Source of the DNA: Bradyrhizobium sp. ISRA464
Lineage (GTDB): Bacteria; Pseudomonadota; Alphaproteobacteria; Rhizobiales; Xanthobacteraceae
Direction of reading: 5' to 3'
Assembly (NCBI RefSeq): GCF_029910095.1
Contig: NZ_CP094526.1
Location: 992,001-1,056,000 of the forward strand
Length of the DNA: 64,000 bases
How positions within the stretch are numbered: position 1 is the first letter of the stretch; every line of letters starts with the position of its first letter. The translations under genes and the position numbers were made by a program. Of this stretch, positions 16,483 to 28,622 are shown in pieces. The notes below the pieces were generated by a model. That model was not told the origin of the DNA. It did no database searches and saw nothing but the letters and a program-made list of their open reading frames with translations.

Positions 16483-17031
16483 CTAGCCACCATTGCCGCC
16501 GATCACGGCGCGCACGGTGTTGTCGGGGCCGAAATCCTCGGCGCTGTCGACATAGAGCAGGGCGCTCAGTTTCGAGCGCGCACGGTTGACGCGGCTCTTG
16601 ATGGTGCCAACCGCGCAGCCGCAGATCGCCGCGGCATCCTCGTAGGAGAAGCCCGAGGCGCCGACCAGGATCAATGCCTCGCGCTGGTCCTGCGGCAGCT
16701 TGTCGAGCGCGGCGCGGAATTCCTCGAACTCCAGATGCGCGGCCTGCGACGGCTGGCTCTTCAGCGTCTTGGCATAGTTGCCTTCGGCGTCCTCCACCTC
16801 GCGTCGCCGCTTCCGGTAGTCGGAGCGAAACAGGTTGCGCAGGATGGTGAACAGCCACGCCGGCAGGTTCGAGCCCGGTTGGAACGAGTCGATGTTGGCG
16901 ATCGCGCGCAGCAGGGTCTCCTGCACCAGATCGTCGGCGCGATCGCCATTACCGGAAAGCGAGATCGCGAACGCGCGCAGGCTCGGCACGGACGCCAAGA
17001 TGTCGTCGCGAAGTTCATTCGTGAGAGGCAT
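16483..17031 (-). CDS. ecfG: General stress response ECF sigma factor EcfG
   Basis: 182 residues with sigma region 2 (FAISLSGNGDRADDLVQETLLRAIANIDSFQPGSN, then LPAWLFTILRNLFRSDYRKRRRE) and region 4 (LDKLPQDQREALILVGASGFSYEDAAAICGCAVGTIKSRVNRARSKL). The region 4 sequence and the adjacent nepR and phyR genes identify it as EcfG (ECF15 group), which is held by NepR and released when phosphorylated PhyR captures NepR. The start overlaps the nepR stop (TAATG), so both are translated from one message. It would recognise GGAAC-N16/17-CGTT, and several such sites lie in the next 11 kb. Confidence 0.95.
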   Translation of the reverse strand: MPLTNELRDDILASVPSLRAFAISLSGNGDRADDLVQETLLRAIANIDSFQPGSNLPAWLFTILRNLFRSDYRKRRREVEDAEGNYAKTLKSQPSQAAHLEFEEFRAALDKLPQDQREALILVGASGFSYEDAAAICGCAVGTIKSRVNRARSKLSALLYVDSAEDFGPDNTVRAVIGGNGG

Positions 17032-17246
17032 TAGTCCCCTCCATTGTTCTTGTCAGCATCGCCCCCGGCAACGGCCGCCGCAGCAGCCTCAGGCCCGTCG
17101 AGTTTGCGGATCAATTCCGCAAAGCGGTCGGGCACCCCCTGTCGCACCACGTCGTCGTACATGGCGCGAAGCTGGTGGCCGATTCTTGATTGAATCTCGG
17201 CGTTGAGACCGCCCTGCTTCTTTACTTCCTTCATGATCTGATCCAC
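17031..17246 (-). CDS. nepR: Anti-sigma factor NepR
   Basis: 71 residues with the NepR core: NAEIQSRIGHQLRAMYDDVVRQGVPDRFAELIRKL, two helices that clamp EcfG regions 2 and 4. The rest is low-complexity (alanine run, then DADKNNGGD). It sits directly upstream of ecfG with stop-start overlap and is divergent from phyR, the standard locus arrangement in Rhizobiales. Confidence 0.93.
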   Translation of the reverse strand: MDQIMKEVKKQGGLNAEIQSRIGHQLRAMYDDVVRQGVPDRFAELIRKLDGPEAAAAAVAGGDADKNNGGD

Positions 17247-17330: not shown

Positions 17331-17355
17331 AATGCAAAGTTGCGCAGAAAGTTCC
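17331..17355 (-). promoter_or_regulatory. EcfG-type promoter candidate for nepR-ecfG
   Basis: On the minus strand GGAAC (17351-17355), 16 bases, CATT (17331-17334), one mismatch from the EcfG consensus. About 85 bases upstream of the nepR start, in the divergent nepR/phyR region. Positive autoregulation of this locus is known in the group, which supports the site. Confidence 0.55.
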
Positions 17356-17376
17356 GAAATGCTGGAACTATTTCAC

Positions 17377-17401
17377 GGAACTTTTTCGCCTTTCGCGCGT
17401 A
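17377..17401 (+). promoter_or_regulatory. EcfG-type promoter candidate for phyR
   Basis: GGAAC (17377-17381), 16 bases, CGTA (17398-17401), one mismatch in the -10 element. Located about 100 bases before the phyR ATG. A second GGAAC at 17364 has no matching -10. Confidence 0.5.
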
Positions 17402-17503
17402 GTCCGGCATGCGGGGGAACAGGGGTCGCCTTAGGAGCTTGATACGTCACCCCAGGACAACGTGTTTCAGGCCGATAGGCTCAAGAACAAGGATGGAGTG
17501 GGA

Positions 17504-18313
17504 ATGTCCCGATCGCAGGTCGTTGCTGAACATCTTCCGTTGTTGCGGCGCTATGCGCGCGCGCTGACAGGAAACCAGGCGTCCGGAGACGCCTATGTCG
17601 GGGCCATGCTCGAGGCCCTGCTGCAGGATGGATCATTGCTGGATCAGACGCACGGCCCGCGCGCCGGGCTGTTCCGGCTGTTCACCCAGATATGGAATTC
17701 AGTGTCCGTGAACAACGACAACGCCGATGTGGCGACGTTGTCGCTGCCGCCGGAGCGCAGGCTCTCCAATATCACGCCGTTGCCGCGCCAGGCCTTCCTG
17801 CTGCTTTCGCTGGAAGGCTTCTCGGAAGAGGAGGTGGGTTATATCCTCGGTACCGACATCGCGGAGACGCGCAAGCTCACCGACGCCGCCGGCCGCGAAA
17901 TGGCCGCCGAGATCGCCACCGACGTGCTGATCATCGAGGATGAGACCTTCATCGCGATGGACCTCGAGAGCCTGGTGAAGAATCTCGGCCACAACGTCAT
18001 CGGCGTCGCCCGCACCCATTCGGATGCGGTGGCGCTCGCCAAGAACAAGAAGCCCGGCCTGATCCTCGCCGACATCCAACTCGCCGACGGCTCGTCGGGC
18101 CTCGATGCGGTGAACGAGCTGCTGCGCACCTTTGAGGTGCCGGTGGTGTTCATCACCGCCTATCCCGAGCGCTTCCTGACCGGCGAGCGGCCGGAGCCGG
18201 CGTTCCTGATCTCAAAGCCGTTCCAGCCGGCGATGGTGTCGGCGGTCGCGAGCCAGGCGCTGTTCTTCCAGCGCAACTCGCGCAACCGCACGGCGCGCGC
18301 GGCGTCGGCATGA
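17504..18313 (+). CDS. phyR: Response regulator PhyR (sigma-like output domain)
   Basis: 269 residues. The N-terminal half is the sigma-like domain that mimics EcfG (QVVAEHLPLLRRYARALTGNQASGDAYV; LPRQAFLLLSLEGFSEEEVGYILG), and the C-terminal half is a receiver domain with VLIIEDETFIAMDLE (acidic pocket), the phospho-acceptor Asp in LILADIQLADGSSGLD, FITAYPERFL and the Lys in LISKPF. Phosphorylated PhyR binds NepR and frees EcfG. ATG at 17504 gives MSRSQVVAEHLPLL, the normal N-terminus; a GTG at 17462 would add 14 residues. Divergent from nepR-ecfG and followed by a strong terminator. Confidence 0.95.
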   Translation: MSRSQVVAEHLPLLRRYARALTGNQASGDAYVGAMLEALLQDGSLLDQTHGPRAGLFRLFTQIWNSVSVNNDNADVATLSLPPERRLSNITPLPRQAFLLLSLEGFSEEEVGYILGTDIAETRKLTDAAGREMAAEIATDVLIIEDETFIAMDLESLVKNLGHNVIGVARTHSDAVALAKNKKPGLILADIQLADGSSGLDAVNELLRTFEVPVVFITAYPERFLTGERPEPAFLISKPFQPAMVSAVASQALFFQRNSRNRTARAASA

Positions 18314-18348
18314 TGTCCTGATTCAGATAGGCTGGCAGAACCTGGTAC

Positions 18349-18376
18349 CGGCGCGCCGAAAGGTGCGCCGTTTTTC
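18349..18376 (+). terminator. Rho-independent terminator of phyR
   Basis: Nine-pair stem CGGCGCGCC / GGTGCGCCG (one G-T pair) with a GAAA tetraloop, followed directly by TTTTT. Lies 36 bases after the phyR stop. Confidence 0.88.
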
Positions 18377-18380
18377 TTTA

Positions 18381-18450
18381 GAGCATGATCTTTTCGGGAA
18401 ACCGCTTCACACTTTGCGCTAGCGCGGCCCTCCGGGTCCGGATCATGCTC
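18381..18450. repeat. Repeat of the GAGCATGATC family (R2), second copy
   Basis: Perfect 10-bp ends GAGCATGATC (18381-18390) and GATCATGCTC (18441-18450). Internal AACCGCTTCACACTTTGCGC is the reverse complement of the core of the copies at 16289 and 39330. It sits between the phyR terminator and a DMT exporter gene. Confidence 0.85.
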
Positions 18451-18535
18451 CAGGCGACCTCCGTGCGCGTTTCGCGCGGCCCGACATGCGGCGCAGGCGG
18501 TGGAGCCTCACGTGTCCGCCTGCTAAGCGCATGCC

Positions 18536-19417
18536 ATGGACACAACGCGGCGCGACAGATCGATCGGTTTTCTCTGCCTGGTGGTGACGGCCTCCGGCTG
18601 GGCGCTGAACTGGCCGCTGATGAAGCTGTTGCTGCAGCAATGGCCGCCGCTGTTCGCACGCGGGTTGGCCGGGACTTGCGCGGCGGCGATCCTTGGGCTC
18701 CTCGCACTGGTCCGCGGGCAGTCGCTCGCGGTAGCCCGCGAAGCGATCCCGCGGCTGCTGTTCGCGTCGTTCACCAACGTCTTCGCCTGGATGGGCTTCG
18801 GCACCGTCGCGATGAAGTTCGTCACCGTCGGCGAGGGTGCGCTGCTGGCCTACACGATGCCGATCTGGGCGATGCTGTTCGCCTGGCCGGTCCTGCACCT
18901 CCGCCCGACGCTGCGCGACCTTGCTGCGCTGGTGCTGGGCGTCGCCGGTGTCGCGTTGCTGCTCGGCGGAGCCGGCTTTGCCTTCACCGCCGGCAAGCTG
19001 ACCGGCATTGCGCTCGCGCTCTCCTGCGCGATCCTGTTCGCGCTCGGCAACGTGCTGAACGGCAAGCCGTTGCCGATGCCGCCGCTCACCGTGGTCGCCT
19101 GGCAGGTCGGCATTGGTTGCCTGGTGATGCTGGCGCTGGGCGTGCTGTTCGAGCACCCGACCTACACGGCGATCACGCCGCTCGGCATTGGCTGCTTCGC
19201 CTACATGACGCTGATGCCGATGGGCATCTGCTACCTCACCTGGTTCGAGACCCTGCGCCGTCTGCCGCCGACCTCGGCCTCGACCGGCATGCTGCTGGTG
19301 CCCGTCATCGGCGTGGTCTCCGCCGCGATCATCCTGGGCGAACCTCTGGGCCTGCGCGAACTCGGCGCCGTGGTGCTCACCCTCGGCGGCGTGACACTGG
19401 CGCTGCGGCGGGCCTGA
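18536..19417 (+). CDS. EamA-family (DMT) transporter
   Basis: 293 residues in ten hydrophobic helices arranged as two EamA repeats, each with the family pattern (first: SGWALNWPLMKLLLQQWPPLFARGL; second: ALSCAILFALGNVLNG and LLVPVIGVVSAAIILGE). Members export small metabolites or amino acids; the substrate cannot be inferred. The short distance to the upstream repeat leaves no obvious promoter. ATG at 18536 begins MDTTRRDRSIGFL. Confidence 0.88.
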   Translation: MDTTRRDRSIGFLCLVVTASGWALNWPLMKLLLQQWPPLFARGLAGTCAAAILGLLALVRGQSLAVAREAIPRLLFASFTNVFAWMGFGTVAMKFVTVGEGALLAYTMPIWAMLFAWPVLHLRPTLRDLAALVLGVAGVALLLGGAGFAFTAGKLTGIALALSCAILFALGNVLNGKPLPMPPLTVVAWQVGIGCLVMLALGVLFEHPTYTAITPLGIGCFAYMTLMPMGICYLTWFETLRRLPPTSASTGMLLVPVIGVVSAAIILGEPLGLRELGAVVLTLGGVTLALRRA

Positions 19418-19445
19418 CGCGCGCTCACTCCTGCCGGGTCTGAAG

Positions 19446-19470
19446 GGAACCGACGTCGCTGGGGCGCGTT
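19446..19470 (+). promoter_or_regulatory. EcfG-type promoter, exact match, for the 46-aa peptide gene
   Basis: GGAAC (19446-19450), exactly 16 bases, CGTT (19467-19470). The ATG of the small gene follows at 19495, leaving a leader of about 18 bases that contains AAGGAG. Confidence 0.82.
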
Positions 19471-19494
19471 CTCTGCAAGATAAGGAGCTTGGCC

Positions 19495-19635
19495 ATGCGC
19501 AAGGTACTCGCGCAGCTTGATGAAGAGCAGAAGGCGCAGCTGCTTTATATCGCGGATCTCGGCACGGCGATGTTTACGTCGGCGCTGGTGGTCTGCATCC
19601 TGAAGGGAATCGTGGACCTCTTCAGCGGGGCTTGA
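19495..19635 (+). CDS. 46-residue putative membrane peptide under EcfG-type control
   Basis: Sequence begins MRKVLAQLDEEQKAQLLYIA and continues with a hydrophobic segment (GTAMFTSALVVCILKGIVDLF) to a TGA at 19633-19635. AAGGAG lies 8 bases upstream of the ATG and an exact EcfG promoter motif lies just before that, which together make this short frame a real gene. One membrane helix with an amphipathic, charged N-terminus; family unknown. Probably a small general-stress protein. Confidence 0.72.
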   Translation: MRKVLAQLDEEQKAQLLYIADLGTAMFTSALVVCILKGIVDLFSGA

Positions 19636-19680
19636 GCCAGCGCCGCATCGTGCTCTGGGCACGGACCGCACAACGCGCCG

Positions 19681-19929
19681 TCAATCCTTTGTGGGCGCGT
19701 CCGTTTCCGTCTGCGTGTGCCCCTCAGGCCCTCGATCGAACACACCATATTCGCTGGATTTCACCCCGGCTGCGGCATCGACGGCCGAGCTTGCCAAGCC
19801 GAGCCTGAGCAGCTCGCGGACCGCCGCGGCGCGGGTCGGCATGCGGTGCCTGAATCGGAAATCGTCGACGGCCGTCAGTTCTTCGGGGGAAAGCATGACC
19901 TGGAGACGTTCGGCACGAAGCTCGTTCAT
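19681..19929 (-). CDS. Small protein with ribbon-helix-helix-like N-terminal segment
   Basis: 82 residues starting MNELRAERLQVMLSPEELTAVDDFRFRHRMPTRAAAVRELLRLGL, which fits the strand-helix-helix pattern of RHH DNA-binding proteins; the C-terminal 35 residues are variable and polar. The ATG at 19929 is chosen because the family-like N-terminus begins there and an exact EcfG promoter lies 40 bases upstream. Could regulate stress genes or be a toxin-antitoxin remnant; no partner gene is visible. Confidence 0.68.
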   Translation of the reverse strand: MNELRAERLQVMLSPEELTAVDDFRFRHRMPTRAAAVRELLRLGLASSAVDAAAGVKSSEYGVFDRGPEGHTQTETDAPTKD

Positions 19930-19968
19930 TGCTGACCACCCAAACTTAGTCAGTTGAGCAATTTGCTG

Positions 19969-19993
19969 AACGAACCAAATTGCGTCGGGTTCC
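19969..19993 (-). promoter_or_regulatory. EcfG-type promoter, exact match, for the RHH-like gene
   Basis: Minus strand GGAAC (19989-19993), 16 bases, CGTT (19969-19972). The -10 lies about 40 bases upstream of the ATG at 19929. Confidence 0.82.
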
Positions 19994-20107
19994 TCAAGCT
20001 CAGACAAAAAAGTTAACTTAGTAAAATTACCAAGCAAAATCAATAATTTACATGGATGCAAACGGAACGAATCTGGTGCTCGCGTCTTTCTACTCCGGAG
20101 AGATGTC

Positions 20108-20296
20108 ATGGCCGACAAGCTCAAGCTGCCCCGCAAGCTATCCGAGGAGCCGGCTGCGCCGAAGCCGCTGCGGCCGAGCCACGCGCGGGTCATCGAGCAA
20201 TTGGACCGCTGGGCCAACAGTCCCGGTCTTCAACCGCCAAAGGTAGACGATGCAGAAGACGATGCAGAAAGTGATTCAAAGACGGAAGCGATCTGA
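20108..20296 (+). CDS. Small hypothetical protein
   Basis: 62 residues: basic and proline-rich N-terminus (KLPRKLSEEPAAPKPLRPSH), then RVIEQLDRWANSPGLQPPK and an acidic tail. GGAGA sits 7 bases before the ATG. No known domain. The end overlaps the next small gene by 47 bases in another frame; both frames look protein-like, so I keep both. Confidence 0.55.
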   Translation: MADKLKLPRKLSEEPAAPKPLRPSHARVIEQLDRWANSPGLQPPKVDDAEDDAESDSKTEAI

Positions 20297-20450
20297 GCCC
20301 CATACATTCGAGCAACGCCTGGAAGAGCATCGGGTGCGGCTCGAGCGCGAACTGGTGCGGCTGCCGGCCGGCGCCAAGCGTGAGCAGCTTATCTCGCGCA
20401 TCGAGCAATTGCGGGCCGCAGCCGAGCTGAATGCGATGCTGTCACTATAG
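20250..20450 (+). CDS. Small coiled-coil-like hypothetical protein
   Basis: 66 residues, highly charged: QRRKRSEPHTFEQRLEEH followed by RVRLERELVRLPAGAKREQLISRIEQLRAAAELNAMLSL. Resembles a family of short helical proteins frequent in Bradyrhizobium (pattern: F-E-x-R-L ... L-P-x-G-x-x-R ... R-x-x-Q-x-x-x-A); that is from memory. Start at 20250 lies inside the previous gene; an internal ATG at 20262 is possible. Confidence 0.55.
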   Translation: MQKTMQKVIQRRKRSEPHTFEQRLEEHRVRLERELVRLPAGAKREQLISRIEQLRAAAELNAMLSL

Positions 20451-20480
20451 GCATGAGCGATTGCGCGTGGAGGGGCCGGC

Positions 20481-20972
20481 TTAGCAGCCGCTGCAGATCG
20501 AACGTATGTTGGCGCTGACTTCCGCGCTATCCTTCGAGCTTTCCGTGGGAGGGCCGAGCCATCTGGGGCGTGCCCATCCCGAAGGGCCTTCCCATCCGGG
20601 ACGTTCCCAATCCGGCCTTGCTGGCCTTGCCAGAAAGATAAAGGGTAAGGTGAACTTGAGCGCATCCTCGTCCATTTCTGCGGGCGGTGGCGGAAGGGGT
20701 TGCGCACGTTCGACAATCGCACGCGCTTCGTTGTCGAGCGCGAGAATTCCACTGTTCTCGACTAGCTAGGTCGGCAGCAGCTTGCCCGTCCGGTCGAGGC
20801 GGAAGCCGACTTTGACGGTCGCGGTCTTCCCATCGGGCGGTGTGGACGGCCGCTTGGCGGCGTCCAAGCGCGCTACCAGTTCCTTTCTCCATGCATCGAC
20901 CGCGCGGCTCTGTGCGAACGACGGAGTGGCAGTTGCGATCAACAAAACAACGACAACGATCCGGTGCCACAT
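20481..20972 (-). pseudogene. TonB C-terminal-like secreted protein interrupted by an amber codon
   Basis: Reads from an ATG at 20972 with a signal peptide (MWHRIVVVVLLIATATPSFA), then AWRKELVARLDAAKRP and VKVGFRLDRTGKLLPT, after which there is a TAG (20766-20768). The same frame continues without any further stop for 94 codons: LVENSGILALDNEARAIVERAQPLPPPPAEM, exactly what follows GKL in TonB C-terminal domains. So a single in-frame nonsense codon splits one gene; TCG to TAG (Ser) is the simplest explanation. The C-terminus carries a Trp/Pro/Gly-rich repeat. Either a recent pseudogene or a sequencing error. Confidence 0.8.
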
Positions 20973-21053
20973 GAAAAGACCTAATCAATTCCAATCGACT
21001 TGCCCGTGCGATCCTATTCGCGCGACGATTGATTGCAAGCGACGCCGCTCGTT

Positions 21054-21173
21054 ATGCATCGGCTTTGCCTGCACCGGTGCCGCACCGCCGGGGACTACAT
21101 CGCGGCGTCGGTTGCGCTGCCGATCCTCGCGCTGTTCGGCGGCCTGTTCCTGGTGAGGACGTTCGCGACGTAG
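21054..21173 (+). CDS. Possible 39-residue membrane peptide
   Basis: MHRLCLHRCRTAGDYIAASV followed by a hydrophobic helix ALPILALFGGLFLVRTFAT. No clear ribosome site and no recognised family, so it may be chance. Listed because the hydrophobic part is coherent and the surrounding region holds nothing else. Confidence 0.28.
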   Translation: MHRLCLHRCRTAGDYIAASVALPILALFGGLFLVRTFAT

Positions 21174-21182
21174 CGCTCTGGA

Positions 21183-21238
21183 GCATCTTCGAGCGAAGTG
21201 GATATCTCTTCGCGCGAAACGAACGCGTCGATCAGAGC
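21183..21238 (+). repeat. R1-family palindromic repeat, intergenic copy
   Basis: TCTTCGAGCGAAGTGGATAT, then TTCGCGCGAA and GAACGCGTC align with the ureD-embedded copy. Outer bases GCTCTG (21175-21180) and CAGAGC (21233-21238) form an inverted repeat around it. Confidence 0.75.
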
Positions 21239-21246
21239 CGAAACAG

Positions 21247-21501
21247 CTAGTCGGTCGGGTGCCGGCCGGTGCGTGGGTTCAATGGGTCGGTCGGCCGTCG
21301 CCGCAGTGCCTCGGGGAGGAACGCTTCGCTGCGCTTGGGCGAGGCGTCGGCGCGGACGTCGGCCGCCCATTGTGCGCGTTCGTGCGAGGTCTGGTTGTCG
21401 TCGAATGTCCGCTTCACGTCGGTCCCATCGACCGGATCGTTGACCCCATGCTGACTCACCGGTGCGTTGGTGCCGCTGTGGATATCGCGGGAATCGTCCA
21501 T
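21247..21501 (-). CDS. Small acidic/polar hypothetical protein under EcfG-type control
   Basis: 84 residues, MDDSRDIHSGTNAPVSQHG ... RAQWAADVRADASPKRSEAFLPEALRRRPTDPLN. No known domain; highly hydrophilic. The ATG at 21501 has GGAG 8 bases upstream and an exact EcfG-type promoter (N17 spacing) ends 32 bases upstream, which supports this start over more upstream codons at 21525 and 21552. Confidence 0.6.
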   Translation of the reverse strand: MDDSRDIHSGTNAPVSQHGVNDPVDGTDVKRTFDDNQTSHERAQWAADVRADASPKRSEAFLPEALRRRPTDPLNPRTGRHPTD

Positions 21502-21532
21502 GGCGGGCTCCGCTTGCGGTTTCATCCGGACC

Positions 21533-21558
21533 AACGTTGCCCGTTCGCGCATCGTTCC
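21533..21558 (-). promoter_or_regulatory. EcfG-type promoter, exact match with 17-base spacer
   Basis: Minus strand GGAAC (21554-21558), 17 bases, CGTT (21533-21536), upstream of the small gene starting at 21501. Confidence 0.75.
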
Positions 21559-21681
21559 GAAAATGTGAAGGACTGGCGGCGCGATCCGCTGGCCGGAATC
21601 CTTGGCTCGTGCAGGACCAGTCGGTAGTATGGAACCCGTTTGGGGCCCAAGACCAAGGCAAGACCAAGGAAAGACCAGGGA

Positions 21682-21906
21682 ATGAAGCACGTCGACGTCG
21701 CAGTGATTGCTGCCACCTTGTGGCTGCTGGCGTCGATGGTGCTGGACATCCTGACGCCGAAGTCCATCACCGCGCTGATGATTGCGGGCGCACTCGCCCC
21801 GCCGTTCCTGATCGGGATAGGCATTCATTTCGCGCGCGAATACTTCAAGGCGAAGCGGCGCAGCTACGGGCCGCCGCCCCGATGGGACGAACGCTTCAAG
21901 AACTGA
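21682..21906 (+). CDS. Small two-helix membrane protein
   Basis: 74 residues: MKHVDVAVIAATLWLLASMV, then ITALMIAGALAPPFLIGIGIHF and a basic cytoplasmic tail AREYFKAKRRSYGPPPRWDERFKN. Two membrane helices. ATG at 21682 follows CAAGGAAAGACCAGGGA, a good ribosome site. No family recognised. Flanked by stress-type small genes. Confidence 0.62.
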   Translation: MKHVDVAVIAATLWLLASMVLDILTPKSITALMIAGALAPPFLIGIGIHFAREYFKAKRRSYGPPPRWDERFKN

Positions 21907-21963
21907 GCAGGGCAGGCGTGCGATTGCTGCATTGAACCGCGCCGAGGCGGCTTGCTATAGCGT

Positions 21964-22012
21964 TGCCAAGCGAAGCGAAAACCGCGCGCGAGGAAAACGC
22001 ATCAAGGCAAAG
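21964..22012 (+). repeat. R1-family repeat, diverged copy just upstream of the transglutaminase pseudogene
   Basis: CAAGCGAAGCGAAAACCGCG, CGCGAGGAAAACGCATCAAG and GCAAAGG align with the ureD-embedded copy; translation in one frame gives AREENASRQ, against SREENASKQ in UreD. Confidence 0.6.
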
Positions 22013-22022
22013 GGTTTGCGGC

Positions 22023-22702
22023 ATGGCCGACACGCTCCCCGATACGATCAGCCGCCTCTACACCGACCCCGGCGAATATATCGACAGCGATCATCCCGCG
22101 GTCGAGCAATTCGCCCGTGCCGCCGTCCCTGCCGGTGCGAGCGCGCGTGACAAGGCGAGGCTGTTGTACAAGGCGGTGCGCGACGGCATCCGCTACAACC
22201 CCTATGTCAGCATGCGAACGCCCGAGAGTTACCGGGCCTCCAGCGTGCTCGCCGCCGGCAACGCTATTGCGTCGGCAAGGCGGCGCTCTACGCCGCCGCC
22301 TGCCGCGTCCACGGCATTCCGGCCCGTGTCGGCTTCGCCGATGTCCGCAACCACCTCACCACCGAGAAGCTGCGCCAGAGCATGGGGACCGACCTTTTCA
22401 CCTGGCACGGCTTCACCGAGGTGTTCGTCGACGGCGCCTGGCGCAAGGCGACGCCGACGTTCAACGATACGCTGTGCGCCAAGCTCGGCGTCAAGCCGCT
22501 CGATTTCGACGGCCATTCGGACGCGCTGCTGCATCCCTTCGACGGTGCCGGGCGCGCCTACATGCAGTATGTCAACGACCACGGCACCTATCACGACGTG
22601 CCCGCCAAATTCCTCATGCGCGAGATGGCGCGCGAATATGCCAACATGCATGGCGAGGACCTCTCTGGCCGCGACATGGAGCGCGAGGCTGCGGAGCAGT
22701 AG
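22023..22702 (+). pseudogene. Transglutaminase-like cysteine peptidase, frameshifted
   Basis: Frame one from the ATG at 22023 reads MADTLPDTISRLYTDPGEYI through SYRASSVLAAGNA. At about 22265 a one-base loss (GCTATTGC where GCTTATTGC is expected) shifts the frame; the second frame continues YCVGKAALYAAACRVHGIPARVG, then FTWHGFTEVFVDGAW and KATPTFN to the TAG at 22700. These are the Cys, His and Asp regions of the transglutaminase core, and the shift falls just before the catalytic Cys. The product would be inactive if the sequence is right. A sequencing error is possible because the downstream frame shows no other damage. Confidence 0.85.
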
Positions 22703-22780
22703 CGGGCGGGTGTCTCGGCGGGCGACGGCGCTGACGCAAACCACCTTCGTCGATTGCGCGCCGACTGAGGGGGGCGTGTT

Positions 22781-23707
22781 ATGGATGCGGAGTTGCCGAA
22801 AGCTTCGCTGAGCCGCTCGGCTACGGGCTGGGAGGACGCGGTCGCGCTGATCGGCTTCATCCTGGTTGCCGCCGGGCAAGCCTCCAACCAGGTTCTGGCG
22901 CGCGGCCTTGCCGGCTCGGTGCCGCCGTTTTCGCTGGCCTTCTTCCGCTGGAGCATCATCGCCATCGGGCTGGCGCCCTTTGCGATCGCGGCGATCCGCG
23001 ATGGCAAGATCCCGCTGGCGCAGAACGCTTGGCCAATCCTCGCCGCGGGCTTTCTCGGCATGTTCCTCTGCGGCGGCCCGGTCTATGTCGCCGGCATCAC
23101 GACCACGGCAATCCACATCGCGCTGATCATGGCGCTGTCGCCGATCGTCGTGCTCCTGATATCGGCAGCGCTCGGCATCGAGCATATCGGCCCGCTGCAG
23201 TGGCTCGGGACGGGTCTTGCGCTCGTCGGCGCGCTCCTGATCGTCTCGGGCGGTCACCTGGAAACCTTCACCCAATCGGCGGCGGCATGGGGCGACCTGC
23301 TGGTCGTGTTCGCGATGCTCGGGTGGTCCGGCTACACCCTCCTGCAATCGCGCGTCGCGCCGCGTGCCTCGCTGCTGGCGCGCGTCAGCCTGTTCGCCGC
23401 GGCTGGCGCGCTGTGCTCGCTGCCGCCTGCGATCCGCGAGATGTGGATCGAACCGACACAGGTCTTCAACGCCAGGGCGCTGGAGGCCTACGTCTTCGCC
23501 GGTCTCGTGCCCGGCCTGCTCGCCTACGCCGGCTTCGCATGGCTCGGCGGCAAGTTCGGCTCGGTGCGGACGTCGCTGGTGCTCTACGTCGCGCCGATCG
23601 CGAGCGCGATCCTGTCATGGATCATCCTCGGCGAGCCGCCGACCACGCTCCACGTGCTCGGCGGCGCGCTGATCCTCGGCGGCGTCTGGGCGAGCTTGCG
23701 GAAGTAG
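22781..23707 (+). CDS. EamA-family (DMT) transporter
   Basis: 308 residues, ten predicted helices in two EamA repeats (first with GQASNQVLARGLAGSVPPF and FFRWSIIAIGL; second with LVVFAMLGWSGYTLLQ and LYVAPIASAILSWIILGEPP). Export of an unknown metabolite. Only distantly similar to the exporter at 18536. Begins 79 bases after the pseudogene. Confidence 0.88.
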   Translation: MDAELPKASLSRSATGWEDAVALIGFILVAAGQASNQVLARGLAGSVPPFSLAFFRWSIIAIGLAPFAIAAIRDGKIPLAQNAWPILAAGFLGMFLCGGPVYVAGITTTAIHIALIMALSPIVVLLISAALGIEHIGPLQWLGTGLALVGALLIVSGGHLETFTQSAAAWGDLLVVFAMLGWSGYTLLQSRVAPRASLLARVSLFAAAGALCSLPPAIREMWIEPTQVFNARALEAYVFAGLVPGLLAYAGFAWLGGKFGSVRTSLVLYVAPIASAILSWIILGEPPTTLHVLGGALILGGVWASLRK

Positions 23708-24008
23708 CCGCGGCGCGCGAGAGGCGAGCGCATCAGTCGGCTCTATGCCGCGGGTAATGCAGAAAAAAGCAGGGCGCGACCGGCATCACCACGATCGCGC
23801 CCTACGTCGCCGGTCAATGGGGCAGGGGGAATAACCGGCTGCCGAAATGACGCAGAAACCCCCGGACTCGTTCCGGGCGAGCGAAAATATTTTTTGTACA
23901 CGGTTAAGTGATTGTGGGGGGCCAGAACCCCCCAGCTTTTGTTCGCGTTGTGCCCGGGATCGCCAAGGGAATTTTAAGGGAATTTTTCACGGGGCGAGGG
24001 ACATCACC
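23708..24008. other. Intergenic region with two hairpins before the secreted protein gene
   Basis: No gene seen. Inverted repeat AGGGCGCGA (23771-23779) / TCGCGCCCT (23795-23803) probably ends the exporter transcript. A second hairpin, GGGGGG (23916-23921) / CCCCCC (23928-23933), is followed by AGCTTTT and lies in the likely leader of the next gene. Between them is an AT-rich stretch (GAAAATATTTTTTGTACACGG) that could hold a promoter. Confidence 0.5.
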
Positions 24009-24401
24009 ATGTCACAGATTCATATGGGAATTTTCGGCGTGCTTGCTGTTGGCCTGACGCTCGGAGCCGTCCAGCTCGCGTCGGGCCATGATCTGATCGG
24101 CGGCCAGCAGGTCGCCACGACCCCGGCGCCCGAGAGCGCCGTCAATCGCGCCGCCAAGGCCGACCGTGCTGCGGCGCCGGTGGCCGGTCAGAAGACGAAG
24201 ACCATCGCGTTGAAGTTCGACGGACTTCCAGCCACCTCCGTCGTGGTCCGTGTTCCCGCGGCCAAGGAAGAAGCGCGCAACCGCCCGGTGGCGCCCGCTC
24301 CGGCCCGGCCCGGCGAGGCCCGCAAGGTTGCTTGCGAGCCCGTGGTCAGCGTGCTGACTGACGTCGCCAAGCTCCTGCAACCCGGCCGCTGCGTGACCTG
24401 A
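24009..24401 (+). CDS. Secreted hypothetical protein
   Basis: 130 residues with an N-terminal hydrophobic segment (MGIFGVLAVGLTLGAVQLAS) acting as signal peptide or anchor, an Ala/Pro-rich linker, a strand-like region KTIALKFDGLPATSVVVRVPA and a C-terminus KVACEPVVSVLTDVAKLLQPGRCV with two cysteines that could form a disulfide. No domain recognised. ATG at 24009 chosen for the signal segment. Confidence 0.65.
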   Translation: MSQIHMGIFGVLAVGLTLGAVQLASGHDLIGGQQVATTPAPESAVNRAAKADRAAAPVAGQKTKTIALKFDGLPATSVVVRVPAAKEEARNRPVAPAPARPGEARKVACEPVVSVLTDVAKLLQPGRCVT

Positions 24402-24817
24402 GGCCGATTGCGCTGATCCGTGATCGGTCGGCGCGGCCAGCATCCACGCTCTTGTCAGTCCGGACTCGCGCCAAATGGCGCGCCCCGGAACGACCGGGGC
24501 AATCGCATAAAGCATCACTGGCCTCAGGGGCTAACGTTGTTTCCGCGTCGTCATGGCCGGGACAAGCCATGGACAAGCCCGGGCATGACGAGTTTGCGGT
24601 TAGACCAACCAAACCGCACGCATCGAACGCGCAGCGTGATCTGCATATGCAGTTGCCCTGCCGGAACGACGGTGGAGGATGGAACGCCGCCCCTGGCACT
24701 GATTTGCCCGACGGCGCAAGCCCCTCACGCAAAAATATTTCTGTTTTTCAGAAGCGCAACTCAGTGTATGAATTGCCCGTCTCACCCGCCTGAGGGGCGC
24801 TTCGCGATCGTCACGAG
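24402..24817. other. Intergenic stretch without recognised genes
   Basis: Contains GTCATGGCCGGGACAAGCC ... GCCCGGGCATGACGA around 24550-24591, a degraded inverted repeat similar in style to the other dispersed elements. Reading frames present on both strands have no plausible starts or domains. Confidence 0.5.
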
Positions 24818-25145
24818 TGTTGGGTCGAGATGCGGTGGACGCCGATGTCACGGCTGACGAGCGTGGCAGATAGCGGACGGTAAAGTCGTGCAGGCCTGAC
24901 GCCCTAGTGGCAGGTGTCTCATCAGCAAGAGGCAAGACCTCTCGCTGATGACGGTGACAACAAAGCCCAGTCTCGCCGGGGAGAGCACGTATAAGCCGTA
25001 AACCATCGCGCAGGGAAAGCCGGGATTGCTCCGGTTTCACCTGTGGTCCTACCTCCCGCGTTTTTACTACACGGGACCCATGGGTGCGATCGGCACCCGG
25101 CTTTCCCTGCGCCCTCTGTTCAAGAGAGGGCGAAACGAAATGCAG
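24818..25145 (+). repeat. Long structured repeat, possible non-coding RNA
   Basis: Core is a perfect 17-bp inverted repeat, GCGCAGGGAAAGCCGGG (25008-25024) and its complement (25096-25112), separated by 71 bases that include a smaller hairpin (GGTGC/GCACC). Just 3' is CCCTCT-GTTCA-AGAGAGGG. Upstream parts include AGCAAGAGG...CCTCTCGCT. I recall very similar sequence (with GAGAGCACGTATAAGCCGTA) in many copies in Bradyrhizobium and relatives; this is memory and no second copy is in the window. Extent is approximate. Confidence 0.6.
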
Positions 25146-25198
25146 GCCTCGGACAGATCATGTCGCGAGAATGCGAAGCTGCGTCCCCATCCACTTCT

Positions 25199-25298
25199 GT
25201 CATCGCCCGGCTCGACCGGGCGACCCGGTACGCCGCGGCCTCTCGGTCAAGCTCCACGTCTCTGGAATACTGGATCACCCGCATGCGCGGGTGATGAC
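25199..25298. repeat. Dispersed element of family R6
   Basis: Begins GTCATCGCCCGG and ends CCGCATGCGCGGGTGATGAC, with TACGCCGCGG and CTGGAATACTGGATC inside. The element at 49604-49703 shares these internal blocks and ends. A partial version occurs at 31655-31682. Confidence 0.8.
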
Positions 25299-25386
25299 AC
25301 CGCGCTGTTTGACATTTTAAATCGCTAAATCGAGGTCCATCCGCGACGTCGTTTCCGGCCATCCGCCGGAACAACCGCGCGGGCCG

Positions 25387-25824
25387 CTACTTTTCCGTCG
25401 GCTCGTTGCTGCCGGCAGCGCTGCGGCTTGCCATCAGGCCGAGTGCGAGGCCGCCCACCGCCAGGATCGGGATCAGCCGCTTGGCGCCGATGGCGCGGAC
25501 GATCTGCAAGCCGGTGGCGATCACCACCGGGTCGGTAAGAGCGTTGGCCGCAGCAGCCTTGGCGGCCTTCTCGGCCTGCCGCCGCATCTCGCGCTTGCGT
25601 ACTGTGTACGCTATGGCGGCGATCAGCGTGACCACGAAGAACAGCGCGGCACCGGCAAGGCATGCCTCCACCGGGCCGTAGTGCTGCAGCACGAATACGA
25701 AGGCGGCCGCGCACAGGAAGACGATGGTGATGAACAGCGCAGCCGCGACGGCGCCGGCGAGCGAGGTCAGCCGCAGAGCGTTCCCGGCGGATTGCTTGAC
25801 GTCATCGATCAGCCGCTGAAGCAT
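25387..25824 (-). CDS. Holin-like DUF1469 (YqjE-type) membrane protein
   Basis: 145 residues from ATG at 25824 (a TTG at 25857 is an alternative). MLQRLIDDVKQSAGNALRLTSLAGAV leads into two membrane helices (ALFITIVFLCAAAFVFVLQHYG and ACLAGAALFFVVTLIAAIAY), then a basic helix KREMRRQAEKAAKAAAANAL and a last hydrophobic segment. This matches the phage-holin-superfamily-III/YqjE type. The upstream gene is a DUF883 protein, the same pairing as yqjD-yqjE in enterobacteria. Likely a stress-induced envelope protein. Confidence 0.78.
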   Translation of the reverse strand: MLQRLIDDVKQSAGNALRLTSLAGAVAAALFITIVFLCAAAFVFVLQHYGPVEACLAGAALFFVVTLIAAIAYTVRKREMRRQAEKAAKAAAANALTDPVVIATGLQIVRAIGAKRLIPILAVGGLALGLMASRSAAGSNEPTEK

Positions 25825-25954
25825 TGCGATGCCTTGCCCTGTAAAGTGCTTCGACAAACGACGCGGCGGCGCGCCAGCGTCGCCAACGCGCTATGAGGCG
25901 TGGTTTGTGCATGATTGCCATCGCTGACCTTACTCGCCGGAAGCCATTGGTCGT

Positions 25955-26290
25955 TTACCGGCGCCAGGTGAGGCCGATCAGAAAGCCGAGGCCGAGCGCG
26001 AGGCCGACAGTCGCAAGCGGCCGCTGCGTGATCACCTCTTCCAGTGTCTCCTCGATCGAGGAGGCTGCATCCTGCGCCGCGCCCATCATCGCGCCGCCGC
26101 GCTCCGACATGTCGTCGAGCGCGGATTCCGCGTTGGCGCGCGTCTCGCTGTAGCGGCGGCGGGCCTGCTTGCCGGCATTTCCGGCAAACGAATTGAGCGC
26201 TTGGGTGATCTGTTCGGTGAGGGCGGCGATATCGTTCTTCACGGCGGTGACATCCTTCTCGAGACGTTCGTAGGTCGCTTTGTCCGTCAT
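25955..26290 (-). CDS. DUF883 (ElaB/YqjD-type) membrane-anchored protein
   Basis: 111 residues: MTDKATYERLEKDVTAVKNDIAALTEQI, long helical stretch, then the C-terminal DUF883 signature RPLATVGLALGLGFLIGLTWRR with a single anchor helix. Enterobacterial homologues bind ribosomes at the inner membrane in stationary phase; here function is inferred. ATGs at 26326 and 26290 are both possible, the second giving the common MTDKATYE start. An exact EcfG promoter lies upstream, and a DUF1469 gene follows on the same strand. Confidence 0.85.
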   Translation of the reverse strand: MTDKATYERLEKDVTAVKNDIAALTEQITQALNSFAGNAGKQARRRYSETRANAESALDDMSERGGAMMGAAQDAASSIEETLEEVITQRPLATVGLALGLGFLIGLTWRR

Positions 26291-26359
26291 GTTCTTGATC
26301 CCAAATGCGCTGTCCGTGCCCGACATCGAAAGCACTCCCGGAAAACCCTGCGTTGAAAA

Positions 26360-26384
26360 AACGCCGCGCCATCGCCAATGTTCC
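26360..26384 (-). promoter_or_regulatory. EcfG-type promoter, exact match, for the DUF883 gene
   Basis: Minus strand GGAAC (26380-26384), 16 bases, CGTT (26360-26363). Lies 34-70 bases upstream of the two possible ATGs. Confidence 0.82.
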
Positions 26385-26400
26385 TGCGGTGAAACCGCGC

Positions 26401-26462
26401 ATTCTCGTTTGACGCGTTCTCTTCACGCGAACCGGTGCCCATTTCGCTTGAAAACGCTTCTA
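26401..26462 (-). repeat. R1-family repeat abutting the AI-2E permease stop codon
   Basis: On the minus strand TAGAAGCGTTTTCAAGCGAA, then GGGCACCGGTTCGCGTGAAG and AGAACGCGTCAAACGAGAAT, a close match to the ureD copy. Its first three bases are the TAG stop of the AI-2E-family gene. Confidence 0.88.
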
Positions 26463-27602
26463 GCCTTCAGGCAATTGCGGAGAATTGACCGGCATCAAAT
26501 GTTCTTTCACGATGAGCCCGACGATCAAAAGCGGCGACGACAGAAAGGCGCCCATCGGGCCCCATAGCCAGGTCCAGAACGCCAGCGCGAGGAAGACCGC
26601 GAGCGCATTCAACGACAGCCGGCGGCCGACGATGGTCGGGGTGATGAAATGTCCTTCCAGGAAGGTCACGACCGTGAAGCAGGCCGGCGCGATCAGTCCG
26701 GCAGCGATGGTTGGCAAGGCGATGATTCCGATCACGACCAGCACCACGAACATCGCGACCGGTCCGATGATCGGGATGAAGTTCAGCGTCGCGGCGAGCG
26801 CGCCGAGACCTGCCGGGCTCGGCATGCCCGTCATCGCGCAGATCGCCCCGGTGACGATGCCGACGCCGGTGTTGATCACGGTCACGGTCAGCAGGTAGTT
26901 GCCGAGATGCGTCTCGAGCTCGTTCAGGATCCGCAGCACACGCAGCCGCGCCTGCCGCTCGCGGAAGGTCATGACCAGCGTGCGACGCAGATCCTTCCAG
27001 CTCGCGATGAACAGGATCAGGGTCGCGATGAAAAGCAGGAATTCGGCGAAGGTCGGTGACAGGAATTCCAGCGTCGGCTGCACCCATTCGAACTTCGGGA
27101 GCTGGAAGGCGGGGAGCGTCTCGGAGCCGCCGACCATGCTCTGCAGCTCCTGCCAAAGCGCAAGGAGGGGGTCGAACACGTGCAGCTTTTGCTTCAGGAT
27201 CGCGCCGAGCTCCGGCAACCGCGAGCTCCACTCCACGATCGGCGACGAGATCAGCCCGACCAGGAAGGCAACCGCCGCTCCGACCGCGATCACGAGCAGC
27301 ACCGCACCGAGCGGGCGCGGGATCCGGTAGCGTTCGAGGAAGCTCGCCGCCGGCGACAACATGGTGCCGATGATGAAAGCCATGGTGATCGGCAGGAAGA
27401 ATGCGCGTGCCAGATAGAGCACCACAACGACGACGATCACGAGAAGCGCGACCAGCGCGAAGGCCACGACCTCGGCGCGGCGGATCACTGGCGGCCGTTC
27501 GGCCTTGCTGTCGGGGACCGGGGTGCCCTCCGGCGTATCGGCGAGGAAACGTTCACTTGGAAGGACGCGCACCAGACCTCTCCCGCGCGGGGATAAACAC
27601 AT
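26460..27602 (-). CDS. AI-2E-family (PerM-like) membrane permease
   Basis: 380 residues, eight predicted helices in the PerM/YdiK/TqsA topology: two N-terminal helices (VVAFALVALLVIVVVVVLYLA and FFLPITMAFIIGTML), a large soluble region, and the C-terminal block VTVINTGVGIVTGAICAMTGMPSPAGLGALAATLNFIPIIGP typical of the family. Substrates range from autoinducer-2 to Na+/H+; here unknown. An exact EcfG promoter lies 43 bases before the ATG. The stop codon comes from an adjacent R1 repeat. Confidence 0.88.
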   Translation of the reverse strand: MCLSPRGRGLVRVLPSERFLADTPEGTPVPDSKAERPPVIRRAEVVAFALVALLVIVVVVVLYLARAFFLPITMAFIIGTMLSPAASFLERYRIPRPLGAVLLVIAVGAAVAFLVGLISSPIVEWSSRLPELGAILKQKLHVFDPLLALWQELQSMVGGSETLPAFQLPKFEWVQPTLEFLSPTFAEFLLFIATLILFIASWKDLRRTLVMTFRERQARLRVLRILNELETHLGNYLLTVTVINTGVGIVTGAICAMTGMPSPAGLGALAATLNFIPIIGPVAMFVVLVVIGIIALPTIAAGLIAPACFTVVTFLEGHFITPTIVGRRLSLNALAVFLALAFWTWLWGPMGAFLSSPLLIVGLIVKEHLMPVNSPQLPEG

Positions 27603-27644
27603 CCGCGCCGCGAAGTCGCCCCGCGCGTCGAATTACCAAACGAC

Positions 27645-27669
27645 AACGGTGCATCCGGACGAAGGTTCC
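27645..27669 (-). promoter_or_regulatory. EcfG-type promoter, exact match, for the AI-2E-family permease
   Basis: Minus strand GGAAC (27665-27669), 16 bases, CGTT (27645-27648), with the ATG at 27602. Confidence 0.82.
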
Positions 27670-27727
27670 ATCGCGGAATCGTGAGGCTGCGTGGGTTGAC
27701 AGTCGCGGCTTTGCGACGATTCGCGGC

Positions 27728-27753
27728 GGAACCGCATGGCGGCAACGCGCGTT
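27728..27753 (+). promoter_or_regulatory. EcfG-type promoter, exact match with 17-base spacer, for the L,D-transpeptidase
   Basis: GGAAC (27728-27732), 17 bases, CGTT (27750-27753), 48 bases before the ATG at 27801. It is divergent from the promoter at 27645-27669, about 60 bases away. Confidence 0.78.
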
Positions 27754-27800: not shown

Positions 27801-28622
27801 ATGACACAGGAGTCTCTCTTCAGCCGCCGGCTTTCGTCGCGCGCCACGCGCACCCTTGCCCGCACTCTTGCCTTCGCCAGCGTCCTGTTCGTGACGCCAT
27901 TCATCGCCACCAGCGCGGCCAACGCGCAGGCCAATCCCCGGGCGTTTGGCTACGCGTCGACCCAATCAGGCGCGTTTCCGAGCGACGAGGTGTTGAACGA
28001 TCCCGCGACCGAGGACGGTGCTCTGCCGGCGCGCTTCCGCCGCACCACCGTCGCGCTCAACACGACCGAGGCGCCGGGCACCATCATCATCGACACCGGC
28101 AACACCGCGCTCTATTACGTGCTCGGCGGTGGCCGCGCGATCCGCTACGGCGTCGGCGTCGGCCGCGCGGGCTTCACCTGGTCCGGCGTGCAGAGCATCA
28201 GCCGCAAGGCGGAGTGGCCGGATTGGCATCCGCCGGCCGAGATGATCAAGCGTCAGCCCTATCTGCCGCGCTTCATGGCGGGCGGTCCGGGCAATCCGCT
28301 CGGCGCGCGGGCGATGTATCTCGGCTCGAGCGAATACCGTATCCACGGCACCAACGATCCGACGACGATCGGCAAGTTCGTGTCGTCGGGCTGCATTCGC
28401 CTGACCAATGAGGACGTCACCGATCTGTTCAGCCGCGTCAATGTCGGGACCAGGGTTGTGGTGCTGCCGAAGAACGGGCCGCATGTCGCCGCACGCGAGC
28501 TCGGTCCGACGACGACCGAGATCTCGGTGCGCCCGGCTCCGATGCCGCCGCGACCTACGGTGATGACGCAGCGCTCGGGTCGCCAGGCGATGAACATCCC
28601 GGTCTCGTCCGCGCTGTATTGA
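27801..28622 (+). CDS. Periplasmic L,D-transpeptidase (YkuD domain)
   Basis: 273 residues. Signal peptide in the first 43 residues (RTLARTLAFASVLFVTPFIATSAANAQA). The YkuD catalytic segment is complete: YRIHGTNDP, then FVSSGCIRLTNEDV with the active Cys and Arg. It makes 3-3 peptidoglycan crosslinks or attaches proteins to the wall. The ATG at 27801 with AGGGG upstream is chosen over in-frame codons from 27681 because it starts the signal peptide. Preceded by an exact EcfG promoter; the DUF2865 gene follows with 8 bases between stop and start. Confidence 0.92.
   Translation: MTQESLFSRRLSSRATRTLARTLAFASVLFVTPFIATSAANAQANPRAFGYASTQSGAFPSDEVLNDPATEDGALPARFRRTTVALNTTEAPGTIIIDTGNTALYYVLGGGRAIRYGVGVGRAGFTWSGVQSISRKAEWPDWHPPAEMIKRQPYLPRFMAGGPGNPLGARAMYLGSSEYRIHGTNDPTTIGKFVSSGCIRLTNEDVTDLFSRVNVGTRVVVLPKNGPHVAARELGPTTTEISVRPAPMPPRPTVMTQRSGRQAMNIPVSSALY

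Follow-up and report, generated by a model that had tools for sequence, protein, structure and literature searches.

An EcfG general-stress locus in Bradyrhizobium sp. ISRA464 adjoined by two gene sets with conserved EcfG-type promoter sites

The genes for the general-stress regulators EcfG, NepR and PhyR of Bradyrhizobium sp. ISRA464 lie within a 64,000-nucleotide stretch of contig NZ_CP094526.1 (positions 992,001 to 1,056,000, forward strand), which we refer to as the window and whose own numbering is used below. In the PhyR-NepR-EcfG partner switch, stress frees EcfG, an extracytoplasmic function (ECF) sigma factor. We consider it very probable that the region combines the general-stress core locus with two adjoining gene sets driven by EcfG itself, one encoding small proteins and the other a predicted envelope module. 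The genes and candidate promoters are listed here; a site is called exact if it matches GGAAC-N16/17-CGTT, and relatives are 80 PhyR loci, 77 from Bradyrhizobium (four of them metagenome bins) and three from unclassified alphaproteobacterial bins, with 10-kb flanks that contig ends limit in some cases.

16483..17031, minus strand: ecfG, general-stress ECF sigma factor (Sigma70_r2/r4; NCBIfam NF009192, 388.8 bits against a cut-off of 307)
17031..17246, minus strand: nepR, anti-sigma factor (PF18557, 58.3 bits against a cut-off of 25.7)
17331..17355, minus strand: candidate nepR-ecfG promoter with off-consensus -10 (GGAAC-N16-CATT), one mismatch
17377..17401, plus strand: candidate phyR promoter with off-consensus -10 (GGAAC-N16-CGTA), one mismatch
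17504..18313, plus strand: phyR, anti-anti-sigma response regulator (PF22029, PF22233, Response_reg; NF006623, 365.6 bits against a cut-off of 240)
19446..19470, plus strand: candidate EcfG promoter of smp46, exact here and in 18/20 relatives
19495..19635, plus strand: smp46, membrane peptide of 46 amino acids (aa), matching no Pfam family
19681..19929, minus strand: rhh, 82-aa ribbon-helix-helix (RHH)-like protein, found in 46/198 genomes and 18/47 genera of a family sample
19969..19993, minus strand: candidate EcfG promoter of rhh, exact here and in 11/20 relatives, the other 9 having one mismatch
20064..20089, plus strand: seventh candidate EcfG promoter, upstream of orf62/orf66, one mismatch in this strain
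20108..20296, plus strand: orf62, small protein, divergent partner of rhh, in 20/80 loci
20250..20450, plus strand: orf66, small protein overlapping orf62, in 20/80 loci
21247..21501, minus strand: orf84, 84-aa protein with no assigned function and no Pfam family (scanned as a 92-aa form)
21533..21558, minus strand: candidate EcfG promoter of orf84, exact here and in 9/14 relatives, the other 5 having one mismatch
25387..25824, minus strand: holin-like membrane protein (PF07332, 18.4 bits, below the cut-off of 28.4)
25955..26290, minus strand: DUF883 (ElaB/YqjD-like) protein (PF05957, 24.8 bits, just below the cut-off of 25.4)
26360..26384, minus strand: candidate EcfG promoter of the DUF883 gene, exact here and in 24/24 relatives
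26460..27602, minus strand: AI-2E family permease (PF01594, 120.7 bits against a cut-off of 34.3)
27645..27669, minus strand: candidate EcfG promoter of the AI-2E permease gene, exact here and in 9/14 relatives, with one mismatch in 3
27728..27753, plus strand: candidate EcfG promoter of the L,D-transpeptidase gene, exact here and in 13/13 relatives
27801..28622, plus strand: L,D-transpeptidase (YkuD; PF03734, 85.8 bits against a cut-off of 23.4)

By profile matches, the genes for an EcfG-type sigma factor, NepR and PhyR are adjacent, as in a general-stress core locus; the nepR product scores 33.3 against the NCBIfam NepR model, below that model's cut-off of 100. A motif scan of both strands found six exact sites in the window and no others. 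These are the six of the original prediction, at the same coordinates and on the same strands, each upstream of a correctly oriented gene, and the one-mismatch sites that it had placed before nepR and phyR are likewise present. It had expected about one chance match per 64 kb; shuffled windows hold 0.81 exact matches on average (largest 4), and the source genome (8.46 Mb, one contig) holds 171, or about 1.3 per 64 kb. The six window sites fall within 8.4 kb and form the densest group among the matches listed (158 of the 171, the other 13 being N16 sites beyond about 7.55 Mb). When 171 sites were placed at random, none of 20,000 trials put six within 8.4 kb, and the maximum of five was reached in 90 trials.

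We found that the sites are conserved well beyond background. Together the loci of relatives (1.55 Mb) hold 125 exact sites, as against 14 matches to the reversed motif. An exact site lies within 200 bp upstream of 100 of the 125 orthologs of seven cluster genes (window excluded; alignments starting after query residue 25 and upstreams under 100 bases were dropped), whereas seven control genes at the same loci have exact sites in 0/192 upstreams and one-mismatch sites in 4; orf66 was not used as a control, since the orf62 site falls within its 200 bp. Shuffling gave 0/1,250 exact matches for the test upstreams and 2/1,920 for the controls. Conservation in close relatives was a condition that the original prediction had set beforehand, and these counts support its claim that part of the EcfG regulon probably lies beside its regulator; in the window all seven genes have the motif upstream on the correct strand, six exactly and orf62 with one mismatch. 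At each of the nine sites tested, conservation is also higher in the motif columns than in the spacers (identity to the window 0.74-1.00 for motifs and 0.30-0.67 for spacers, with alignments starting after residue 12 and upstreams short of the full 140 bases dropped). A motif kept over a diverged spacer is what would be predicted of a binding footprint, and relatives appear largely to keep EcfG-type sites even where the genes lie elsewhere.

The two sites before the regulators depart from the consensus in a conserved way. At the nepR-ecfG site (identity 0.96 for the motif and 0.67 for the spacer) the CATT form occurs in 48/80 relatives and the other 32 are one mismatch from it, with AATT in three japonicum-group rows among those listed; at the phyR site (0.74 and 0.40) the CGTA form occurs in 63/80, including 29/30 of the japonicum clade. 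Both counts follow the window's own variants and were made without a shuffled control. Since CATT and CGTA are conserved while neighbouring sites keep CGTT, a tuned-down feedback is suggested, in which the regulator promoters may be weaker than the effector promoters. On the 3' side of ecfG, a HAMP-PAS-GGDEF-EAL protein is encoded at 13386-16289 (plus strand).

In the envelope module, the site of the DUF883 gene (identity 1.00 for the motif and 0.40 for the spacer) is also exact in 29/29 upstreams of an overlapping second set (window included) and in 13/14 outside Bradyrhizobium. The protein itself scores below two Pfam cut-offs (24.8 against 25.4 and 22.6 against 27 bits) and matches the ElaB model NF007709 with an expect value (E) of 1.3e-6, below the model cut-off. 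Given its score, the neighbouring membrane protein falls outside Phage_holin_3_6 and is named 'holin-like' only; none of 25 upstreams of its own has an exact site, and the gene is likely downstream in the DUF883 operon. Of 146 Bradyrhizobium genomes, the 30 best were used to check the promoters of AI-2E loci, together with L192-L194; in those 30 (window included, alignments starting after query residue 40 dropped) the site is exact in 22 and has one mismatch in 8. The L,D-transpeptidase site is exact in 28/29 upstreams from the 30 best genomes (window included) and in 13/19 outside Bradyrhizobium, where 25 loci were compared after alignments starting after residue 60 and upstreams under 120 bases had been dropped.

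The linkage of this module to the regulators, which the original prediction did not cover, extends to other genera. Among 114 non-Bradyrhizobium genomes searched, linkage was scored in the 22 (8 genera) with an AI-2E match of 58% identity or more; 20 of these have no more than 20 kb between the AI-2E gene and the best EcfG match, and in the remaining two the genes are on different contigs. The other 92 genomes (match of 47% identity or less, or none) fell outside the scoring, and two of them (G223, G238) have the AI-2E and EcfG genes within about 5 kb. Within Bradyrhizobium, linkage was scored in the 34 single-contig genomes of 146: the AI-2E gene is within 20 kb of phyR in 14 and farther away in 20. 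A midpoint-rooted PhyR tree shows the module inside the fetched flank for 1/30 rows of the japonicum group, 'none' labels including truncated loci. Five same-contig copies more than 20 kb from phyR (L127 at 73 kb; L132, L136, L138 and L193 at 0.55 Mb or more) have 14/15 of their DUF883, AI-2E and L,D-transpeptidase sites exact and one with one mismatch. The most parsimonious account of these comparisons is that the linkage is older than Bradyrhizobium and was lost in the B. japonicum clade, a separation that likewise goes beyond the original prediction. In 18 of the 20 unlinked genomes AI-2E and phyR are 1.6-2.2 Mb apart (sizes rounded), and in 14 of the 20 the shorter path between them crosses contig coordinate 1 if circularity is assumed; an origin-spanning inversion with a breakpoint between AI-2E and phyR might give that pattern.

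The small-protein unit has a narrower distribution. Of 81 rows in the PhyR tree, those with smp46 beside phyR all belong to one group (support 99/97), where they make up 21/22; the lone row without it is a 4.4-kb contig. The unit of smp46, rhh and orf62-orf66 is found beside phyR in one Bradyrhizobium clade. smp46 is present in 30/146 Bradyrhizobium genomes and, in the family sample, in 4/198 genomes and 1/47 genera, all Bradyrhizobium. At 14 copies with neither rhh nor phyR in 1.5-kb flanks, six have exact sites and four have one mismatch. One copy away from phyR (L107) lies near a DUF883 match, so that the two units can associate elsewhere. The original prediction had added that standard callers may miss such small genes. 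Small genes with sites are indeed there, but not all are missed, as smp46 homologs stand in public sets as 'hypothetical protein'. The third-codon-position share of changes is 0.48 for smp46, 0.54 for orf66 and 0.56 for orf84, and the values for these and orf62 (0.48-0.56) fall in the range seen for known neighbouring genes (0.49 for L,D-transpeptidase and DUF2865).

The rhh gene appears to be older than the unit beside phyR. Among 30 family-search loci (window included), its upstreams have 7 exact and 16 one-mismatch sites, as against 4 and 20 in 600 shuffles, and outside Bradyrhizobium 15/22 are within one mismatch of the EcfG motif. Its assignment as RHH is weak: Pfam gives no RHH family, with HTH_3 in 2/23 members (best E 0.039); the match to the NikR model has E 0.17; the best match among PDB sequences is unrelated (E 0.13), and MazE9 follows at E 1.2; NikR and ArtA are among 14 Foldseek matches to an AlphaFold model with a mean confidence (pLDDT) of 61, all with E above 2; and homologs are named RHH/CopG or HigA antitoxin depending on the source. 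Its divergent partner orf62 was matched near rhh in 14/30 loci, 6/22 outside Bradyrhizobium. The seventh site, before the small-ORF (open reading frame) pair at 20108-20450, is an addition to the original prediction; exact in 16/20 relatives and with one mismatch in 2, it appears to be degraded in this strain. For orf84, the start at 21501 is likelier than the upstream ATG at 21525, because the site ends only 7 bp from that ATG. A NepR-like feedback protein was considered among the small ORFs and rejected, because none of smp46, rhh, orf62, orf66 and orf84 matches NepR in Pfam.

Other observations concern genes outside the two sets. At 21963-22811 (plus strand) lies a gene that is transglutaminase-like by appearance, with no profile match; it seems to extend over two or more frames (ORFs 21963-22811 and 22382-22702), and ORF 22382-22702 is strongly conserved, with a third-position share of 0.80. 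Elsewhere in the source genome, exact sites precede a PRC-barrel-like gene (L141) and a gene for a Hva1-like small protein (L157), both by appearance, and a gene for a second AI-2E-family protein of about 650 aa, so named from an AI-2E search match (L159).

Several results weigh against EcfG driving both gene sets. Across the genome the motif by itself shows no enrichment (171 matches, as against 181 for the reversed-motif control); nine bases alone are therefore no promoter mark, and the case consequently rests on conservation in relatives. Changed codons are nonsynonymous more often than synonymous in smp46 (204 vs 126) and orf62 (235 vs 194). No site was found at the remaining 4/14 smp46 copies away from rhh and phyR, nor at L019 and L020. 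In the 25 non-Bradyrhizobium loci the AI-2E site is exact in only 1 and has one mismatch in 12, and within the fetched flanks DUF883 was matched in 14 and L,D-transpeptidase in 19. Adjacency is not required, since in the japonicum clade the envelope module is located elsewhere. The unenriched count, inflated as it is by palindromic GGAACG...CGTTCC stretches that match both strands (genome positions 732504, 985801 and 4276407), is what would be expected if a short motif had matched by chance in a GC-rich genome and the cluster had been picked post hoc. That explanation is contradicted by the conservation tests, namely the contrast between test and control upstreams and the divergence of the spacers, as well as by the random placements, and we reject it as scarcely credible.

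Real promoters could also be those of a different ECF sigma factor whose motif is similar, or of several EcfG paralogs; related -35 elements are common to several ECF groups, and the source genome has 12 EcfG matches at E<=0.001, other ECF sigma factors included. Against this, the motif is the published one for R. etli EcfG1, GGAAC-N16-CGTT, as given in the excerpted text of PMC3892343, and nearly all of the selected genomes of other genera have the AI-2E gene next to their best EcfG match; we therefore regard a different sigma factor as improbable. A further explanation is compatible with transcription of both sets by EcfG and parts from it only over what the linkage means: the genes would be EcfG targets whose adjacency is without regulatory meaning, reflecting inherited order and insertion at a plastic region on the 3' side of phyR. 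In its favour, phyR and the smp46 site are separated by anything from about 0.9 to 8.8 kb, the linkage is missing in the japonicum clade, and promoters are retained at distant copies; however, both EcfG-driven units, though separate, are found to one side of phyR, and the envelope-module linkage recurs in 8 other genera. We judge the matter to be evenly balanced.

If EcfG does drive both sets, stress-phosphorylated PhyR would sequester NepR and free EcfG, which would then transcribe nepR-ecfG and phyR from the conserved off-consensus promoters, giving limited positive feedback. From near-perfect promoters, it would also transcribe the envelope module (DUF883, holin-like, AI-2E permease, L,D-transpeptidase) and the small proteins (46-aa membrane peptide, RHH-like protein, orf62-orf66, orf84). 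The transcription of cluster genes by EcfG, the partner switch and a role in envelope reinforcement are here extrapolated from established EcfG biology. An envelope-hardening role is likely for the module, because L,D-transpeptidases cross-link peptidoglycan and ElaB and YqjD are RpoS-dependent membrane proteins. A bolder proposal, which we hold to be doubtful, is a self-contained circuit of graded strength, in which imperfect regulator -10 elements would cap feedback, effectors would have perfect ones, and the linked 46-aa membrane peptide and RHH-like protein would be new feedback or second-tier regulators like Sphingomonas NepR2.

EcfG-dependent genes beside ecfG have precedents, as far as the excerpted papers go. 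The R. etli non-coding RNA ReC64 lies in the ecfG1-phyR region, is EcfG1-dependent and has a promoter of the same motif, its start mapped by 5' RACE (rapid amplification of cDNA ends); it is one RNA, whereas the units here are protein-coding (PMC3892343). In S. melonis, nepR2 is an EcfG-dependent gene beside ecfG that encodes a feedback protein; NepR2 is NepR-like, unlike the small proteins described above (PMC6599016). The EcfG (ECF15) regulon of B. diazoefficiens USDA 110, with the same regulator in the same genus, comprises over 100 genes and includes otsCB/otsA and treS as reported targets (PMC8092242, citing Gourion 2009); the excerpt of that paper describes no phyR-adjacent gene cluster. 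In the japonicum clade, unlike in the source strain, this cluster is mostly absent from the surroundings of phyR (29/30 rows). Some cluster genes may already be on the Gourion 2009 target list, and a word search of the main text of the USDA 110 transcription start site paper found EcfG only in the reference list. In our literature search, with the Gourion 2009 targets outside the comparison, we found in print neither the small-protein members nor a comparable linkage of several genes spanning several genera; nor did the search return a paper joining EcfG with DUF883, or one joining PhyR, EcfG and ribbon-helix-helix. RpoS and EcfG are sigma factors of different types, and to our knowledge elaB does not lie beside rpoS in E. 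coli. ElaB and YqjD are nevertheless DUF883 C-tail membrane proteins dependent on RpoS (excerpt of PMC6389858), and the likeness is one of a DUF883-kind membrane protein under a general-stress sigma factor.

Taken at its present strength, the analysis predicts a local EcfG regulon gene by gene, including several uncharacterised small proteins, and would place a DUF883-like protein under the alphaproteobacterial general-stress sigma factor, as ElaB and YqjD stand under RpoS in E. coli. The natural pairs of genomes with the module near to or far from phyR would allow the effect of distance on induction to be tested.

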